A stretch of DNA of 32,871 nucleotides, taken from NCBI GenBank assembly GCA_015493525.1, contig WGCY01000032.1, positions 1 to 32,871 of the forward strand, in the 5' to 3' direction. This document shows positions 1,838 through 8,655 of the stretch, one piece after another. The notes under the pieces were generated by a model. It saw nothing but the letters and a program-made list of their open reading frames with translations. It made no database searches and was not told the origin of the DNA. The DNA comes from Bacteroidales bacterium. GTDB taxonomy: Bacteria; Bacteroidota; Bacteroidia; Bacteroidales; F082. How positions within the stretch are numbered: the first letter of the stretch is position 1; each line of letters opens with the position of its first letter. Made by a program: the position numbers and the translations under genes.

Positions 1838-3607
1838 CTATAATGATGTATGCAGTGCATGTTCGGTAAAGATGTTTAATTGTTGATTTCTCTCAATTTC
1901 CTTTTTTGTTAATTTGGCTTTATAGTTTTCCCAGTCTTTAATCTTTATACCTGCAATCCCTAATTGTAATTCATCGAAATTGGTATGAGAAATTATTTCA
2001 TGCAAATTAATTCTCATTAGCAAATCTTTCGTTATCATTCTTTTAGCATCTTTAAATGCAATTGATTGAATAAATCCCTGTGTTCCCTCTTTGTTCAACA
2101 GAAACCTTGTTATCTCCGCTTCAATTAATGTATCAAAACCAATAAAGTAACAAGTATCATCAAGCATGGCTGGCTTGTTATCAATTGGCTTAACAAGAGA
2201 AAATGTGGTCGTTTTATACATTCCCGCAATGGCCACTTTGTAGGGTTTAAATGAATAATCTCCAATTCCAAAAATTGAGAAAACAGGTTTCCCTTTGTAA
2301 ATACTTGATTTTCTTTTGTTAAAATACTCAATATTATTGAAAAGATAATAATAAGTCTTAGGATATAGTTCTCTTATATATTTAGTTTCCTGTCCTACCT
2401 TTTTCTGAGTAATGATGGTATATTTTCTGGATTTATCAATTACAGCCCCTTTTAAATCAGAGCTTTTTAATAATGCAAAAACCAAATCTTTTTCTATTTC
2501 GACCGTTTCTTTATTATTATTAAAATATTGACCGTTAATATTTTCCAACTCCATTATTTTAGAAGCATCGTGTTTTACCCCTTGTCTCCAGACGAAAGGA
2601 AATTCTCCATCCAAATCTTCGGACTTTAGGTACAAGTCAATGTTTGCAACAAATTTATTATTAACCCAGCCATATTCCCTAATTAAATGTTTTGTGTAAA
2701 TATTATATTCACTAATTGACATGCCCGGCCTTTTGTTTAGGGAACACAATAATAAACAGGCATTTACGGAAACATTAAATTCTATTTTCGCATCAATATC
2801 AAATTGTTTAATGTTCGAAATTCGATATTTTATTTTATTTTGTTCCAGAAGAATATTTTTTGCTACCGAATTTTTAACAAGAAAGGCAAAATTCCCATCT
2901 GATTTTGAGAATGTTGATATTAACTTAACGGAAATATACTCCCCAATATCAAAATTTCCTTTTCCTGTAATTGCATCAAGTCCGTTATGGTTTTTAAAAT
3001 TTGACTTTACGGGTAAATTATCAGAGCCGAGAGAAGATAATTTTGAATTTGTTACCCAGGGAGGATTTCCAATGACCAATATTTTTTGGTCTTTGTGTTT
3101 CTCTGAAATTTTCCTAAAATCAAAGTCAAAGACATTGTAATGGTAAATATGTATTTCCGGCAGATGAGAATTTTTACTTTTCAAAAAGTAGTCCAAAATA
3201 GCAAATTTCGTTTCCCATACGTAAGGTTTGTAAATTTCAACGCCATAGATAAACTTAACATCATCAAATGTGCGAAGGCATGAAAGAATAAAATTTCCTT
3301 TTCCACAGGTAGGTTCAATAATAATCTCAGGTGCTGTATTTTGATTTTTTAAAAGATGACAAACCTTATCACTTAAATTTCTATTTGTCTGAAAATCACC
3401 ATACTCAGCTCTGTCAGGTTCGTTTACAACAACTCTTTCATTTGACACGGTATCAATTAGTTCCTCTAATTCTGAAGGCGTTTCAAAAAAGAAATTTATT
3501 CCGCAAATTGATTCTATCTCTGAATTAAAATCCTCAACAGATAAACTGATTGAATATTCAAAAAAATCAATTACAGATTGTGTAATATTTGCTTCAAAAA
3601 TTTTCAT
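1838..3607 (-). CDS. Type II DNA adenine-N6 methyltransferase of an R-M pair
   Basis: A 589-residue protein with the hallmarks of an N6-adenine DNA methyltransferase. Motif I, the S-adenosylmethionine loop, is EPTCGKGNFI (98-107); motif IV, the catalytic (D/N)PP(Y/W), is NPPW (181-184). The segment DFQTNRNLSDKV (71-82) before motif I fits motif X, the usual order in gamma-type enzymes. About 350 residues follow motif IV and probably hold the target-recognition region. It starts 1 bp after the stop of the endonuclease gene, so the two are co-transcribed with the endonuclease first. Its job would be to protect host DNA at the site cut by that endonuclease; the recognition sequence cannot be read from the protein. 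The gene is markedly AT-rich next to its neighbours, which suggests horizontal acquisition. Confidence 0.88.
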   Translation of the reverse strand: MKIFEANITQSVIDFFEYSISLSVEDFNSEIESICGINFFFETPSELEELIDTVSNERVVVNEPDRAEYGDFQTNRNLSDKVCHLLKNQNTAPEIIIEPTCGKGNFILSCLRTFDDVKFIYGVEIYKPYVWETKFAILDYFLKSKNSHLPEIHIYHYNVFDFDFRKISEKHKDQKILVIGNPPWVTNSKLSSLGSDNLPVKSNFKNHNGLDAITGKGNFDIGEYISVKLISTFSKSDGNFAFLVKNSVAKNILLEQNKIKYRISNIKQFDIDAKIEFNVSVNACLLLCSLNKRPGMSISEYNIYTKHLIREYGWVNNKFVANIDLYLKSEDLDGEFPFVWRQGVKHDASKIMELENINGQYFNNNKETVEIEKDLVFALLKSSDLKGAVIDKSRKYTIITQKKVGQETKYIRELYPKTYYYLFNNIEYFNKRKSSIYKGKPVFSIFGIGDYSFKPYKVAIAGMYKTTTFSLVKPIDNKPAMLDDTCYFIGFDTLIEAEITRFLLNKEGTQGFIQSIAFKDAKRMITKDLLMRINLHEIISHTNFDELQLGIAGIKIKDWENYKAKLTKKEIERNQQLNIFTEHALHTSL

Positions 3608-3608
3608 A

Positions 3609-4286
3609 CTAATGATTCACTTTGTCGATAATTTTGGTAATCCCATCCACTTTCTCAGAAAGTGCTACAACCCTTCCGTATTGTAACCTCCATTGCAAAG
3701 CGTTGGATATGGTCAGATAGCCTAATTTGGGAGGGCTCTGCAAAATTTGCTTTGCTATTTGGGTTAGGATAATATCATCCGCAGGGATGTTTTTATCAGT
3801 GAGATAAGCTATTATATCCTCTTCGTTTGCCCCATCATCCATCATTTCAATCAGCCTGAAAGTTGTTGTGTAATCTGCCGTTCTTTCCTTGTCGATAAAC
3901 GAGCAACTCTTGAAATCTAACAGGGCTGTTTCACTTTCCTGATTATCTGTCTTTTCATAAACAAAGACGAGAAGGTTATATCCCAGCCCGTATATTTTTT
4001 GTTTAGCATCTTTAAAAGGGCTTGAAGATTGGGGTTGTTTTATTGAAGTTACTTTAATATCAGTATTTATTTCCGGTGCCGGCAAATCAACTCCCCTTGC
4101 AGAGTTTCCATTATCTACGATATAATTTTCATTCAGGAAGTTTTTGAATTTGTGTTCGATATAAGTTCCAACAGCTTTTCCGTCAGTTACACCATATAAC
4201 TCTTTGTTTTTGTACATGGTTTCCTGTTTGCAAAATTCATTTGCTGAATTTATTAAATCTTTTATTGTCAGGTTTTTCTTGTTCAC
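3609..4286 (-). CDS. Type II restriction endonuclease (PD-(D/E)XK type)
   Basis: A 225-residue protein encoded directly upstream of the adenine methyltransferase. Likely catalytic residues are Glu44 in a helix (YIEHKF), Asp67 (GVDLP) and the pair Asp76/Lys78 (TDIKVTS), which together make a plausible PD-(D/E)XK metal-binding site. The stretch QPQSSSPFKDAKQKIYGLGY (84-103) looks like a conserved family block, and YNLLVFVY after it is a typical core strand. The frame begins with GTG at 4286; the ATG at 4291-4293 is in another frame, so GTG is the best start. A -7 element lies at 4309-4316. I recognise it as a restriction enzyme from the fold signature and its methyltransferase partner, not from a named enzyme, so its site is unknown. 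Confidence 0.8.
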   Translation of the reverse strand: MNKKNLTIKDLINSANEFCKQETMYKNKELYGVTDGKAVGTYIEHKFKNFLNENYIVDNGNSARGVDLPAPEINTDIKVTSIKQPQSSSPFKDAKQKIYGLGYNLLVFVYEKTDNQESETALLDFKSCSFIDKERTADYTTTFRLIEMMDDGANEEDIIAYLTDKNIPADDIILTQIAKQILQSPPKLGYLTISNALQWRLQYGRVVALSEKVDGITKIIDKVNH

Positions 4287-4416: not shown

Positions 4417-5418
4417 TCAGTGCATGTCCGCCCCAGACTTCCCATCCCAATAACTCTCTACCGTTCTTCTCAGCCCCTCTTCCAGCCCCACTTTCGGCAC
4501 ATAACCAAAATGCGCTTTTAGCTTTTGGATGCTGAAATGATAATCACGCCCGCCATTGTCGATGCGGTAAGGCGTTAAAAAAGGCTCACTTCGCAATTTA
4601 AGAAAGCGGTGAAAAGCATAATAACTTTTGGCGGCAGCCATGGCCAGCCCATAAGGAAGCGATGTTTTGGGCAATGGGACACCGAGTTGTTTTGCCAGGG
4701 CCGTATTGAACGCATGCCAGGAAATATCCAATCCGTCCGTGGCAAGATATGCGTTCCCGACAGCTTTTTGTTCATTGCCAAGCAACATCATAATGTCAAC
4801 CAGATTCTCCACATAAACCGGACAGGTCTTGCTGCGACCGTGGTTTATTTCGGCAAATTTTCCCTGCAAAAGGGCATCGATATATTTGAAAAGAAAGGTC
4901 CTGTCGTTGATGCCAAAGACATTTCCCGGACGGACCGCAGTGATTTCCATGGAACATCCCGTTGAAAAATCCCAAAGCCACTGTTCGGCCATGAGTTTGG
5001 TTTGTGCGTAAGGAATGAGGTTTTGTGCCGGAGGGTCATCTTCCTTTACATTTTGCCTTCCAAAACCATGAAAAGCCACCGTGCTGACATAAACGAAACG
5101 TTTCACGCCGGCTTTTTCAGCTGCCTTGGCCACATTTTGCGTCCCGAAGAAATTAATTTTCTCAAAAAGAGAGAAAGGCCCCCAGTCGGCTGCCAGTCCG
5201 GCCACATGAAAAACTATCTGTACGTTTTCCATTGCCGGTTTCAGGGTTTCAGGCTGTGTAATATCACCATAAAAAAGATTTACCGGCAGGCCATCAATAA
5301 ACTGCAAATCAGAACTTTTGCGCACCAGCGCATGGACTTCGTACCCATCTGTGAGCAGCCTCCGGCAAAGGTTGCTGCCTATAAAACCATTGGCACCGGT
5401 TACGAGAACCTTTTGCAT
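4417..5418 (-). CDS. NAD(P)-dependent epimerase/dehydratase family reductase (candidate ceramide-pathway reductase)
   Basis: A 333-residue extended short-chain dehydrogenase. The Rossmann glycine motif is GANGFIG (8-14), the Ser/Thr pair sits in YVSTVAFHG (about 110-118) and the catalytic YxxxK is Tyr137/Lys141. The overall pattern resembles the dihydroflavonol reductase / 3-beta-hydroxysteroid dehydrogenase branch more than sugar epimerases. It is the last gene of a four-gene minus-strand operon, its ATG overlapping the preceding stop by one base. The other genes encode an N-acyltransferase-like protein and an Aur1-like PAP2 protein. Bacterial ceramide synthesis uses a reductase of this superfamily (CerR), so a role in reducing the 3-keto group of a sphingoid or ceramide intermediate is my inference. 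Another lipid or sugar substrate remains possible. Confidence 0.82.
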   Translation of the reverse strand: MQKVLVTGANGFIGSNLCRRLLTDGYEVHALVRKSSDLQFIDGLPVNLFYGDITQPETLKPAMENVQIVFHVAGLAADWGPFSLFEKINFFGTQNVAKAAEKAGVKRFVYVSTVAFHGFGRQNVKEDDPPAQNLIPYAQTKLMAEQWLWDFSTGCSMEITAVRPGNVFGINDRTFLFKYIDALLQGKFAEINHGRSKTCPVYVENLVDIMMLLGNEQKAVGNAYLATDGLDISWHAFNTALAKQLGVPLPKTSLPYGLAMAAAKSYYAFHRFLKLRSEPFLTPYRIDNGGRDYHFSIQKLKAHFGYVPKVGLEEGLRRTVESYWDGKSGADMH

Positions 5419-6134
5419 CAGTGAAAGTAGATTATGAACAAATCGGTAAACACACCGATAGAAACGTGAATCAGAAAAACGTACCAGATAGAACGGCTGC
5501 GAAGGGCAATCATGCCAAACAATATCCCCACAAAGATGGAGCCGATGATTTCACCCTCCGGTTTGTCGATGTGCACAAGGCAGGAGGAGATGGTTTCGAT
5601 AAGGATGGCATTGACTGCTCCAAAGCGATCTTTTAAGCCAAAGAGGATAAAACCACGGAAGAAAAATTCCCAGGCCACGTAATAAAACATGACGTAAGCT
5701 GTCTCATAAATAAACAGATGCGATTGATCGGCCAGCAGGCTTTTCGCCAAAGGATACTCCACACGCAGGTCGGGCATTTTTGAAGCGATAAAAATAATCG
5801 GGGCCACCAGTACAGGAATGGTAATCAGCCATCGCAAGCCGTATTTCACATCGCCCCACCCCCATCCAAACTGCCGCAGAGAGCTTTTCATCACAAACTT
5901 CACATACAACGCAGGCAGAATGAACATCAGCACAAAAAACACGGCGAACTGCCAGTACCGGGCAATTAAATCACCTTCATACAGCGACTTAACACGCGGA
6001 AAATAGTCATAGAAAAATTGCGGATAGCCGTGGTAGCGGTACAAAGTGAGCAACACCGGCGCACTCAGCAGAATAACATAGACATGAATGTCGCGTTTAT
6101 CAAACGTAATCCCCTTAAAAATTCCTTTCAACAT
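5418..6134 (-). CDS. CPBP-family (Rce1/Abi-like) intramembrane protein
   Basis: A 238-residue polytopic membrane protein with about six hydrophobic segments. Near the C-terminus it has the CPBP signature: WEFFFRG (155-161, Glu156 and Arg160) followed by LVHIDKPEGE (187-194, His188 and Glu194). In active CPBP proteases the first motif is usually EExxxR; here the first Glu is Trp155, so proteolytic activity is uncertain. It overlaps the upstream PAP2 gene by 20 bp and the downstream reductase gene by one base, so translation is probably coupled. Its place between two lipid-type genes suggests a membrane-associated accessory role, but nothing in the sequence shows the substrate. Confidence 0.8.
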   Translation of the reverse strand: MLKGIFKGITFDKRDIHVYVILLSAPVLLTLYRYHGYPQFFYDYFPRVKSLYEGDLIARYWQFAVFFVLMFILPALYVKFVMKSSLRQFGWGWGDVKYGLRWLITIPVLVAPIIFIASKMPDLRVEYPLAKSLLADQSHLFIYETAYVMFYYVAWEFFFRGFILFGLKDRFGAVNAILIETISSCLVHIDKPEGEIIGSIFVGILFGMIALRSRSIWYVFLIHVSIGVFTDLFIIYFH

Positions 6135-7068
6135 CGTCCTCTACTTTACAATAAGGTCTTAACCGTCCCCTGATTTGCCTGTCGTAAAACCATCCGGCAA
6201 AACTGACTGCCACCGCCGTCCACACGATCCCGGCAACAACATCCACCACATAATGAAAACGGCAATAGATGACGGCAACAAAAATCCCCAAAATGAACGG
6301 GATAAAGGTAAGAAACATTTTTTTGTTGTACCTGAACATGATCACCATCGTCGTTAGGGAAGTGGCAATGTGCAGGCTGGGAAAGGCATCGAACTTGTTC
6401 GGTTCAAAAATATGAATAAAGTTACGGATGGGAACAGCAAGGAAAATTCCATTCAGAGCCTTGGTTTGCAACTGCATGATGGGCTCATAATAACGCGGCC
6501 CCATAGCCGGCACAAAGAAATAAGTTATATAAGCTCCATAATTCACCACAAGCAGAAGAAAAATACTCCTGTCGAGGGCGGTAAACGCTCTTTTTCGGTA
6601 CAAATAAACCAAAATAAACAGCGGGAACGGGTAGTAAATAAAATAAGTGAGGTACAACAAATCGGTCAGCCACGGGCGGACCCAATGCTCTATCCAAACT
6701 GTCGGATCGACACCCAACATCCGGAAATCTATGGCTGCCAATTCTTTGTCATAATCATGCGGATTAAAATAGGGAAGAATCATAAAGAAACTTTCAAAAA
6801 TCACAAACATGAAGATCAACGGATAAAAATCCAGGTATATTTTACCGAGCTTTTGCCAAAAATTCTGGGGAGGGCCCGGTTTTCGGTTTTTACGCAAAAA
6901 GATGGCCAGGCCAATGAGTGCAAAAGAAAAAACCAGTACAACAACCGGCCAGACAGCATAAGGGTTTCGCGGAAGCGAGAAAAGAAAAAAAACAAAAACG
7001 ACAACCACAAAAAGTGTGTTCAAAAGGTCAATTACACTCAGGTACCTCTTGTTGAAAAACGAAATCAT
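6115..7068 (-). CDS. PAP2-superfamily membrane protein, Aur1/inositol-phosphorylceramide-synthase-like
   Basis: A 317-residue protein with about seven to eight membrane segments and the three PAP2 motifs in the Aur1-type arrangement: PAMGPRYY (187-194), PSLH (230-233) and YCRFHYVVDVVAG (268-280). Catalytic candidates are His233, His272 and Asp276. This C-terminal PAP2 subfamily includes fungal Aur1 and the bacterial enzymes that move a phospho-head group from a phospholipid to ceramide. Soluble-lipid phosphatase activity is the alternative. It lies 6 bp after an N-acyltransferase-like gene and overlaps a CPBP gene, all in one operon that ends in an epimerase-family reductase. The neighbours fit a phosphosphingolipid role. 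Motif presence is seen directly; the substrate is inferred. Confidence 0.85.
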   Translation of the reverse strand: MISFFNKRYLSVIDLLNTLFVVVVFVFFLFSLPRNPYAVWPVVVLVFSFALIGLAIFLRKNRKPGPPQNFWQKLGKIYLDFYPLIFMFVIFESFFMILPYFNPHDYDKELAAIDFRMLGVDPTVWIEHWVRPWLTDLLYLTYFIYYPFPLFILVYLYRKRAFTALDRSIFLLLVVNYGAYITYFFVPAMGPRYYEPIMQLQTKALNGIFLAVPIRNFIHIFEPNKFDAFPSLHIATSLTTMVIMFRYNKKMFLTFIPFILGIFVAVIYCRFHYVVDVVAGIVWTAVAVSFAGWFYDRQIRGRLRPYCKVEDDVERNF

Positions 7069-7074
7069 AGCCTC

Positions 7075-8211
7075 TTATCCCCGCTTCTTGAAGTCTTGAG
7101 AATAAATACGATACGTTTTATACGGGTCCGCATTTATGTTTTTCAGAATACGGTTCATCATGGTGTTATTTTCCAGAATCCAACTTGCTTCCGCTTCTTT
7201 GTACCCCCATTTCTCAGCCGCTTTAAAGCAGCGGGCATACATAACCGTGTCAATCCCTTTGAGGCGATAACCATCAATCAATCCAAGTGTCAGTACTCGG
7301 CCACGGTTGACTTTCTTTTTGAAATTGATTAATTTCAAAAAATTAAACGGGAAAAGACGGCCATCGCGTATCGTTCTCGTAATCTGATTTAAATCCGGCA
7401 GAATGGCAATAAATGCCACCGGTTTGCCTTTGTCCTCGGCAATATACACAAAGTCGGATGTAGTAACCATTTTAAGCTCCTGCGCCAGGGCTTTAAACTC
7501 ATCATCATCCATGGGGATAAAACCCCAGTTCTTTTCCCAGGCCTTGTTGTAAACATATTGCAATTTGGAAGCTTCTTCTTTTATCTTTTTAAAATTCACA
7601 TTCCGGACAGTAATTCCATCCGCATTCAGCCGTTTTTCAATGTTATCTGCCAGCTGAAGATATCTTTTAGGAAAATTGCTCACCGGAAAACGATAGGAAA
7701 ACAGATCCATCTTTTTGCCAAAGCCGGCAGCCTTAATCAGGTCGTCATAGTAAGGCTTGTTGTGTACCATCATCACATAGGGCTGGGTATCAAACCCTTT
7801 GACAAGCGTTCCGCAAGTGTCGTTTGTAGAAGGGTTCATGGGGCCATATATCCCATCAACACCTTTTTCTTTCAGCCACTTTTTGGCCGCATCAAAAAGT
7901 GCCCCGGAAACTTCCTTGTCGTTCACCGACTCAAAAAAGCCAAAAAAGCCATAGTTCTCATGCCAGTGTTTTACATAATTTTGGTTGGTGATGGCTCCGA
8001 TACGCCCCACCACATCGCCCTGATCATTCAACGCAATAAAATAATCGGCATCCGCATGATGGAAAAACGGATTTTTCTTTTTATCCAGTGTCTCTTTCTG
8101 AACAATCCGTAAATCGGGCACATAAAGTGCATCATTGGCATAAAGTTTATAAGGAAACCCTATAAATGCTTTTAAATCCTTTTTACTTTCAACTTTTTTT
8201 ATCTGAACCAT
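7075..8211 (-). CDS. GNAT-fold N-acyltransferase-like protein (YghO / bacterial ceramide synthase-like candidate)
   Basis: A 378-residue soluble protein, first gene of the four-gene operon. The N-terminal third has YFIALNDQGDVVGRIGAITN (about 57-76), the usual GNAT strand pattern before the acyl-CoA site. The conserved-looking stretch IYGPMNPSTNDTCG follows. The C-terminal half carries a second GNAT-like strand block (DFVYIAEDKGKPVAFIAILPD) and ends with a region like 'EASWILENNTMMNRIL', also GNAT-like. I connect it with the long GNAT-type proteins such as E. coli YghO and with the N-acyltransferases proposed as bacterial ceramide synthases; this is from memory and needs a profile search. Its operon partners, an Aur1-like protein and an epimerase-type reductase, support an N-acylation step in sphingolipid synthesis. 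A -7 element lies just upstream at 8232-8239. Confidence 0.75.
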   Translation of the reverse strand: MVQIKKVESKKDLKAFIGFPYKLYANDALYVPDLRIVQKETLDKKKNPFFHHADADYFIALNDQGDVVGRIGAITNQNYVKHWHENYGFFGFFESVNDKEVSGALFDAAKKWLKEKGVDGIYGPMNPSTNDTCGTLVKGFDTQPYVMMVHNKPYYDDLIKAAGFGKKMDLFSYRFPVSNFPKRYLQLADNIEKRLNADGITVRNVNFKKIKEEASKLQYVYNKAWEKNWGFIPMDDDEFKALAQELKMVTTSDFVYIAEDKGKPVAFIAILPDLNQITRTIRDGRLFPFNFLKLINFKKKVNRGRVLTLGLIDGYRLKGIDTVMYARCFKAAEKWGYKEAEASWILENNTMMNRILKNINADPYKTYRIYSQDFKKRG

Positions 8212-8231: not shown

Positions 8232-8239
8232 CAAATATA
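8232..8239 (-). promoter_or_regulatory. -7 promoter element for the four-gene lipid operon
   Basis: CAAATATA reads TATATTTG on the coding strand and matches TAnnTTTG, 21 bp upstream of the ATG at 8211. No other promoter is seen inside the operon, where gaps are 6 bp or less. Confidence 0.45.
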
Positions 8240-8415: not shown

Positions 8416-8500
8416 GCCCAGGTGGCGGAAATGGTAGACGCGCATGGTTGAGGGCCATGTTCCCGTTTTGGGAGTGCAAGTTCGATTCTTGTTCTGGGCA
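8416..8500 (+). tRNA. tRNA-Leu (anticodon GAG)
   Basis: An 85-nt class II tRNA. The acceptor stem GCCCAGG pairs with TCTGGGC, with discriminator A at 8500. The anticodon stem CATGG/CCATG encloses the loop TTGAGGG, which puts GAG at 8450-8452. A long variable arm (CCC/GGG) and a T arm with TTCGATT follow. CCA is not encoded. It is followed 66 bp later by a second tRNA-Leu, and the pair probably forms one transcript. Confidence 0.95.
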
Positions 8501-8507
8501 CAAAGAG

Positions 8508-8560
8508 AATGTTGAATGTGGAAGAATGATTGAGGAATACCGGATTTGTCATTCAACATT
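8508..8560. repeat. 11-bp perfect inverted repeat between the two tRNA genes
   Basis: AATGTTGAATG at 8508-8518 is the exact reverse complement of CATTCAACATT at 8550-8560, with a 31-bp loop. In the precursor RNA it would close a hairpin between the two tRNAs and might guide processing; there is no U tract, so it is not an intrinsic terminator. Confidence 0.55.
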
Positions 8561-8566
8561 TTGAAT

Positions 8567-8650
8567 GCCCAAGTGGCGGAATTGGTAGACGCGCTAGTTT
8601 CAGGGACTAGTGATCGCAAGGTCGTGTAGGTTCGAGTCCTATCTTGGGCA
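8567..8650 (+). tRNA. tRNA-Leu (anticodon CAG)
   Basis: An 84-nt class II tRNA with acceptor strands GCCCAAG and CTTGGGC and discriminator A at 8650. The anticodon stem CTAGT/ACTAG holds the loop TTCAGGG, giving CAG at 8601-8603. It has a long variable arm and the T-loop TTCGAGT. CCA is not encoded. A strong intrinsic terminator follows within 10 bp, so this is the last gene of the tRNA transcript. Confidence 0.95.
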
Positions 8651-8655
8651 CTTTC

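Follow-up and report, generated by a model that had tools for sequence, protein, structure and literature searches.

In the contig WGCY01000032.1 of an uncultured Bacteroidales bacterium (the window, that is, the whole stretch of 32,871 nucleotides that was analyzed), four closely packed genes on the minus strand, at positions 4417..8211, very probably belong to a ceramide pathway. The complete explanation that we favor, with a probability of roughly three in four, is that this operon makes a (dihydro)ceramide carrying a phospho-headgroup from the product of serine palmitoyltransferase (SPT). The ceramide assignment is supported because synteny, presence-absence patterns, sequence similarity and predicted fold agree. 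The family classes of the proteins, the synteny with SPT, the predicted-fold matches of the PAP2 and CPBP proteins and the lack of a MIPS match in most carriers can be read from the sequences; from these, we infer the substrates, the order of the steps, the headgroup and the role of the CPBP protein as follows. 3-Ketosphinganine would come from the SPT, whose gene lies elsewhere in the genome, and would be N-acylated by the GNAT-fold N-acyltransferase; the extended short-chain dehydrogenase/reductase (SDR) would reduce the 3-keto group; the Aur1-type PAP2 protein would move a phospho-headgroup from a phospholipid to (dihydro)ceramide; and the CPBP protein, acting non-proteolytically, would hold the SDR and/or the PAP2 protein together or present their lipid substrate. 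SPT-linked ceramide synthesis genes are of a known kind, and the apparent novelty is the operon that contains an Aur1-type PAP2 protein, a CPBP protein and an SDR from outside the clade of CerR, the ceramide reductase of described clusters. Such an operon may point to sphingolipid steps of Bacteroidota that are still without known genes. A preceding sequence-only reading had proposed a ceramide and phospho-ceramide operon here, and the comparisons support it: neither of the findings set beforehand as refuting it, namely, grouping of the GNAT protein and the reductase with unrelated sugar or amino-acid enzymes or a frequent occurrence of the operon in genomes without SPT, was encountered.

The genes, all with ATG starts, encode, in the direction of transcription, the GNAT-fold N-acyltransferase, which resembles bCerS and YghO (7075..8211, 378 aa); the PAP2_3 integral membrane protein, a predicted ceramide phosphotransferase of the type of Aur1 and inositol phosphorylceramide (IPC) synthase (6115..7068, 317 aa); the CPBP-family membrane protein, for which we propose a partnership in the membrane with the SDR and/or the PAP2 protein (5418..6134, 238 aa); and the SDR of the OleD/3beta-HSD type, the proposed (3-keto)dihydroceramide reductase outside the CerR/epi clade (4417..5418, 333 aa). 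A gap of 6 bp separates the GNAT and PAP2 genes, the PAP2 and CPBP genes overlap by 20 bp, and the CPBP and SDR genes by 1 bp. The PAP2 protein contains GPRYY at residue 190, PSLH at 230 and YCRFHYVVDVVAG at 268, and the SDR contains the Rossmann motif GANGFIG (GxxGxxG) at residue 8 and the YxxxK signature as Y137/K141. The positions, the junctions and these motifs are as the sequence-only reading had given them, and its four family calls are borne out by Pfam: PF00583 for GNAT (2.1e-7), PF14378 (PAP2_3) for PAP2 (5.7e-20), the Rce1-like PF02517 for CPBP (8.1e-10) and PF01370 (Epimerase) for the SDR (1.1e-37).

The GNAT protein aligns with YghO of Escherichia coli K-12 at 35% identity over 379 columns (E 1e-77) and with that of E. 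coli BL21 at 36% identity (E 3e-80); a sequence search of the PDB with this protein and with the PAP2 protein gave no relevant match. In E. coli BL21, spt, epi and yghO lie close together, and the available text of PMC9386255 names yghO and CC_1154 as aca, the N-acyltransferase gene of the ceramide cluster. In the best 80 of 588 named loci with GNAT relatives, with the neighborhood taken from two open reading frames (ORFs) before to four after the GNAT relative, SPT is found nearby in 71, a CerR-like SDR in 67, both in 61, a PAP2 protein in 12 and a CPBP protein in four; in one further locus (L158), the CPBP gene falls slightly outside the range. The nine loci without SPT in range are L111, L116, L117, L122, L124, L125, L127, L167 and L172, of which L122 and L125 are contigs under 5 kb. 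At least four of the named loci (L108-L110 and L112) repeat genomes already in the genus/family set; with these left out, the counts are 67/76 for SPT and 59/76 for SPT with a CerR-like SDR. In the phylum sample, leaving the window's own locus aside, SPT-like genes lie no more than 1.5 kb away in 26 of the 29 best loci, counted as tblastn matches to SPT rather than as family assignments; in the two of these 29 loci that were checked, the best model of the SPT-like gene is NF047600, below its cut-off. The similarity to bCerS/YghO, for which the sequence-only reading had proposed a comparison, is accompanied by linkage to SPT, and the GNAT protein is predicted to N-acylate 3-ketosphinganine. The operon resembles the SPT-bCerS-CerR clusters (Caulobacter CC_1162/CC_1154/CC_1164; E. 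coli BL21 spt/yghO/epi) in combining a GNAT of the YghO family with a reductase of the epimerase family, and SPT is likewise present in the window's genome, although unlinked there. It differs from these clusters in lacking an acyl carrier protein and an acyl-AMP ligase, in using a reductase of another clade and in the addition of the PAP2 and CPBP genes.

Within the genus, 11 of the 12 genomes, that of the window included, hold orthologues of PAP2 and GNAT together with SPT, and the twelfth (G123) has none of the three; several of the genus genomes are only 86-88% complete. All four genes occur in the same order in nine of the 11 operon-bearing genomes, which argues against chance, and in L070 and L072 the contig ends within or just after the CPBP gene. 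In one of the nine, a Fic-family ORF (L067:4662-5768) splits the operon between CPBP and SDR. SPT is divergent from and adjacent to the GNAT gene in five of the 11 genomes (L072, L073, L075, L076 and L077), the window not being among them. Outside the genus, a contig labeled as Saprospiraceae (L123) carries SPT-GNAT-PAP2-CPBP-SDR in one run, a member of another genus (G138, apparently the same genome as G166) has SPT-GNAT and PAP2-CPBP-SDR as two separate units, and the set SDR-CPBP-PAP2 is found again in a distant family, in three of its genera. The expectation that the gene order would be conserved in sphingolipid-making Bacteroidota therefore holds for the genus and L123, the only places where the four-gene order was seen, and fails as a general rule for SPT-bearing Bacteroidota. 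The companion expectation, that the operon would be absent where SPT is lacking, stands: among 40 relatives, in which SPT-bearing means at least 607 bits to NF047600 (the next genome scores 375), 12 of the 20 SPT-bearing genomes and none of the 20 others encode a PAP2 orthologue with 50% identity or more, and only a distant gene pair was seen in one SPT-less genome (G137). Genes in the loci of relatives were called by an ORF script, in which antisense ORFs masked some genes (L239, L240) that were later recovered.

Among the NCBIfam models, the SDR scores highest with OleD (162 bits, cut-off 580), and in the PDB it comes closest to a sterol-4-alpha-carboxylate dehydrogenase. OleD is a 2-alkyl-3-oxoalkanoate reductase, and a 3-keto group next to a long branch resembles 3-ketoceramide, an analogy that suggests a 3-ketoceramide reductase. 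When the window's genome was searched with the common CerR of Pedobacter, the window SDR came first (E 2.4e-25, the next being 1.8e-13); the published comparators from Bacteroides, BF9343_4218/BF9343_4240 (PMC10865984) and BT_0972 (PMC9278070), lie outside these comparisons. In the reverse search of ten named genomes, a window-type copy (44-69%) was found in three, and the CerR of the ceramide locus was the best match in five of the other seven. We consider it rather probable that the SDR is the ketone reductase, an estimate lowered slightly because the reciprocal relation between the window SDR and the ceramide-locus CerR breaks down in the remaining two genomes (L154, Sphingobacterium; L119, Reichenbachiella), where another SDR scores better. 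Two further results tell against this assignment. In the phylogenetic tree, in which epi sits on a long branch and some forks are weak, the common CerR and E. coli BL21 epi form one clade (96/90) and the window-type SDRs another (100/100). In addition, G118, G119, G120, G121 and G128, five of the 12 operon-bearing relatives, also encode a common-type CerR (at least 52% identity), so that the SDR may have another substrate; in the other seven (G000, G122, G124-G127 and G138), it was not found at that threshold. Orthology of the SDR with CerR is rejected by the tree, and the identification with CerR made in the sequence-only reading survives as a role and a place in the operon, not as membership of the clade that unites E. 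coli epi with the common CerR of Bacteroidota. In most carriers, the SDR is plausibly a non-orthologous stand-in for CerR, as judged from these comparisons. The SPT-less G123 keeps a common-type CerR (48%, C48:78726-79721), which may mean that this reductase acts on a second substrate as well. A more specific proposal, which we regard as rather unlikely, is that CerR is replaced by a two-part ceramide reductase, tethered to the membrane and composed of the CPBP protein and the SDR, and that the PAP2 protein is a phosphoethanolamine-ceramide synthase; if this were true, the CPBP-SDR pair would be the only candidate for the reduction seen in the seven relatives without a common-type CerR.

The CPBP protein has a predicted Rce1-like fold; when the fold was checked a second time, by Foldseek alone, no match reached E 0.001. 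In the motifs of the family, the first Glu of EExxxR is replaced by W155 and the Asn of HxxxN by G227, and in all 17 aligned sequences these positions are occupied by W or Y and by G or A, respectively. According to the available text of PMC11980579, a model of MrtX has the first Glu and a His hold the catalytic water and the Asn help form the oxyanion hole. In view of these replacements, the CPBP protein is unlikely to work as an intramembrane protease on the enzymes of the pathway, maturing or regulating them, even though the fold is that of the family, E156, R160, H188 and H223 are invariant in 17/17 sequences, and K191 and E195, also invariant, suggest an active site as well. We put the chances that it is instead a non-protease membrane partner at about even. 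Precedents are SpdC, in the SagB-SpdC complex (6u0o), and LnsB, in lipoprotein N-acylation by LnsAB, which, as described in the available part of PMC7387801, combine the CPBP fold with altered catalytic motifs and are non-proteolytic partners of lipid- or envelope-linked enzymes. Their partners and pathways are different, the identity of the window CPBP protein to SpdC is 7%, and LnsB is likened to it by description only. The W-for-E change as a mark of sphingolipid-linked CPBP proteins only was rejected: among nine other CPBP proteins found by similarity outside sphingolipid operons, seven also have W and two have I, which detracts from the change as a pointer to ceramide synthesis. In the sampled part of the sphingolipid literature, neither CPBP term was found. 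The recurrent CPBP gene is one in which to test a non-proteolytic role in membrane-lipid synthesis.

The predicted model of the PAP2 protein is closest to IPC synthase and Aur1, in line with the Aur1-like label given to it from motifs, and it aligns with them over residues 1-297. These matches, with 260-265 residues, include the N-terminal helices and lie at least 5 Z units above those to phosphatases, whereas the alignments with LpxE and PgpB do not begin until about residue 104-117. This predicted fold is that of an Aur1-type ceramide phosphotransferase, which we consider the probable function, and makes it improbable that the protein is instead a phosphatase of ceramide-phosphate or sphingoid-phosphate. 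The likeness to yeast Aur1 with its subunit Kei1 (9ivc) and to the 2026 structure of IPC synthase (9vj4) extends over ~260 residues at 17% identity, and by analogy the CPBP protein could be an accessory subunit comparable to Kei1.

Given that the best structural match is IPC synthase and that one locus with the CPBP-SDR pair (L158) carries an inositol operon, the PAP2 protein might itself be an IPC synthase that uses an inositol lipid obtained otherwise. The inositol phosphoceramide operons (B. thetaiotaomicron BT_1522-1526; L228:189-9758, MIPS-PgpA-GtrA-DUF5686-SPT-GNAT-CerR-DUF4833-PAP2) share with the window operon an Aur1-like PAP2 gene linked to ceramide genes, but the window PAP2 gene has neither MIPS nor PgpA beside it, and a 100/100 branch in the tree parts the window-type PAP2 proteins from those of inositol operons. 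Against NF052609, the model for phosphoinositol dihydroceramide synthase (curated cut-off 480), the window protein scores 31.8 bits, compared with 293-344 bits for five PAP2 proteins of inositol-type or related loci; those of L226-L228 and L233 reach 297-344 bits, themselves below the cut-off. A search of the window's genome (96.4% complete) for PF01658 (MIPS) gave no match, and such a match is lacking in 11 of the 13 genomes with a window-type PAP2 protein. One of the two exceptions, G121, has both kinds: its second cluster, running from MIPS to PAP2 without SPT, includes its own NF052609-like PAP2 (319 bits) and coexists with the window-type operon. In the other, G119, the contig ends within a second cluster, of which MIPS, SPT, GNAT and part of a common CerR are present. 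On these grounds, inositol phosphoceramide was rejected as the main product, and the IPC synthase reading appears less probable still than the phosphatase one; the headgroup is probably something other than inositol. Phosphoethanolamine is the likeliest headgroup, tentatively, with chances slightly below even. The available text of PMC8791184 counts ethanolamine phosphoceramide with the sphingolipids that are most plentiful in the vesicles of B. thetaiotaomicron and describes a BLAST search with fly CPES against the proteome of that species as giving no match; our literature searches found no report of a phosphoethanolamine-ceramide synthase in Bacteroidota. Given the ceramide-operon setting and genomes mostly without a MIPS match, this group of Aur1-type PAP2 proteins outside the inositol-ceramide synthases is a concrete candidate for the missing headgroup step of ethanolamine phosphoceramide. 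In two loci, L093:6942-7646 and L154:10128-10793 (Sphingobacterium), a weak match to CDP-alcohol phosphatidyltransferases follows SPT-GNAT-CerR, at the place of PAP2, and is possibly an alternative headgroup enzyme.

Several observations weigh against the ceramide reading of the operon as a whole. The GNAT family is found in 112 of the 118 genomes of the phylum sample at E 1e-5, many matches being of 25-32% identity and often distant paralogues, so that membership alone is not diagnostic. The window's genome (G000; 2.85 Mb in 53 contigs) has five further GNAT paralogues, of the YghO type: two tandem pairs (C1:21445-23747 and C52:3393-5708) and a single gene (C3:26536-27657). Its SPT, on contig C27, scores 617 bits to NF047600, its best model, 23 below the cut-off of 640, although its best PDB match is SPT (3a2b/8guh, E 4e-142; next molecule 2e-92). 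The co-occurrence of PAP2 with SPT, with a Fisher p of 4.5e-5 by genome, loses significance when collapsed by genus (0.11), which means that common ancestry accounts for some of the association. Distant PAP2 copies (27-28%) lie beside distant GNAT genes in the SPT-bearing G146 and in G137, where the pair (L081:5342-7405; GNAT 33%, PAP2 27%) occurs without SPT by the same criterion.

The window's genome also encodes glycine C-acetyltransferase, a fourth alpha-oxoamine synthase that matches no clear class and a SulA-type cysteate acyltransferase (L007, on C44; 601 bits to 28eh), and from the latter sequence the bacterium may make sulfonolipids as well. Together with the five GNAT paralogues, this enzyme makes other N-acyl lipids possible. 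Sulfonolipid synthesis likewise needs N-acylation and keto reduction, so the operon might make such a lipid from the SulA product, with an incidental link to SPT, as the location of SPT on another contig and the SPT-less pair in G137 would allow; this is the least probable of the alternatives, given that SPT adjoins the operon in five genus genomes and that G123 keeps a second alpha-oxoamine-synthase match (323 bits to NF047600, in the profile range of L007, and a possible SulA), yet lacks SPT and the GNAT and PAP2 orthologues. An ECF sigma factor gene and two genes with no informative matches are among those that follow SPT on C27.

Upstream of the operon, the box TATATTTG (8232..8239, minus strand), 28 bp before the GNAT start, matches TAnnTTTG and is likely to be the operon promoter, as far as can be judged from sequence. 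All 12 regions examined upstream of operon GNAT orthologues contain TAnnTTTG, compared with a mean of 0.6 in mononucleotide shuffles, which ignore the kinship of the regions. The box reads TATATTTG in 11 of them, 26-30 bp before the GNAT ATG (in L071 and L077, measured from the ATG visible in the sequence), and TAGTTTTG at -34 in L231. We take TAnnTTTG to be the -7 box of Bacteroidota. Just beyond, on the opposite strand, are two tRNA-Leu genes (gag and cag, 8416-8651). Downstream, between the operon and a DUF4301 gene, a type II restriction endonuclease (NF052465, 331 bits, cut-off 290) and, beside it, a methyltransferase-like gene with a weak PF20473 match occupy 1838-4286 on the minus strand; this pair looks inserted because DUF4301 directly follows the SDR in the sister loci L067 and L069.

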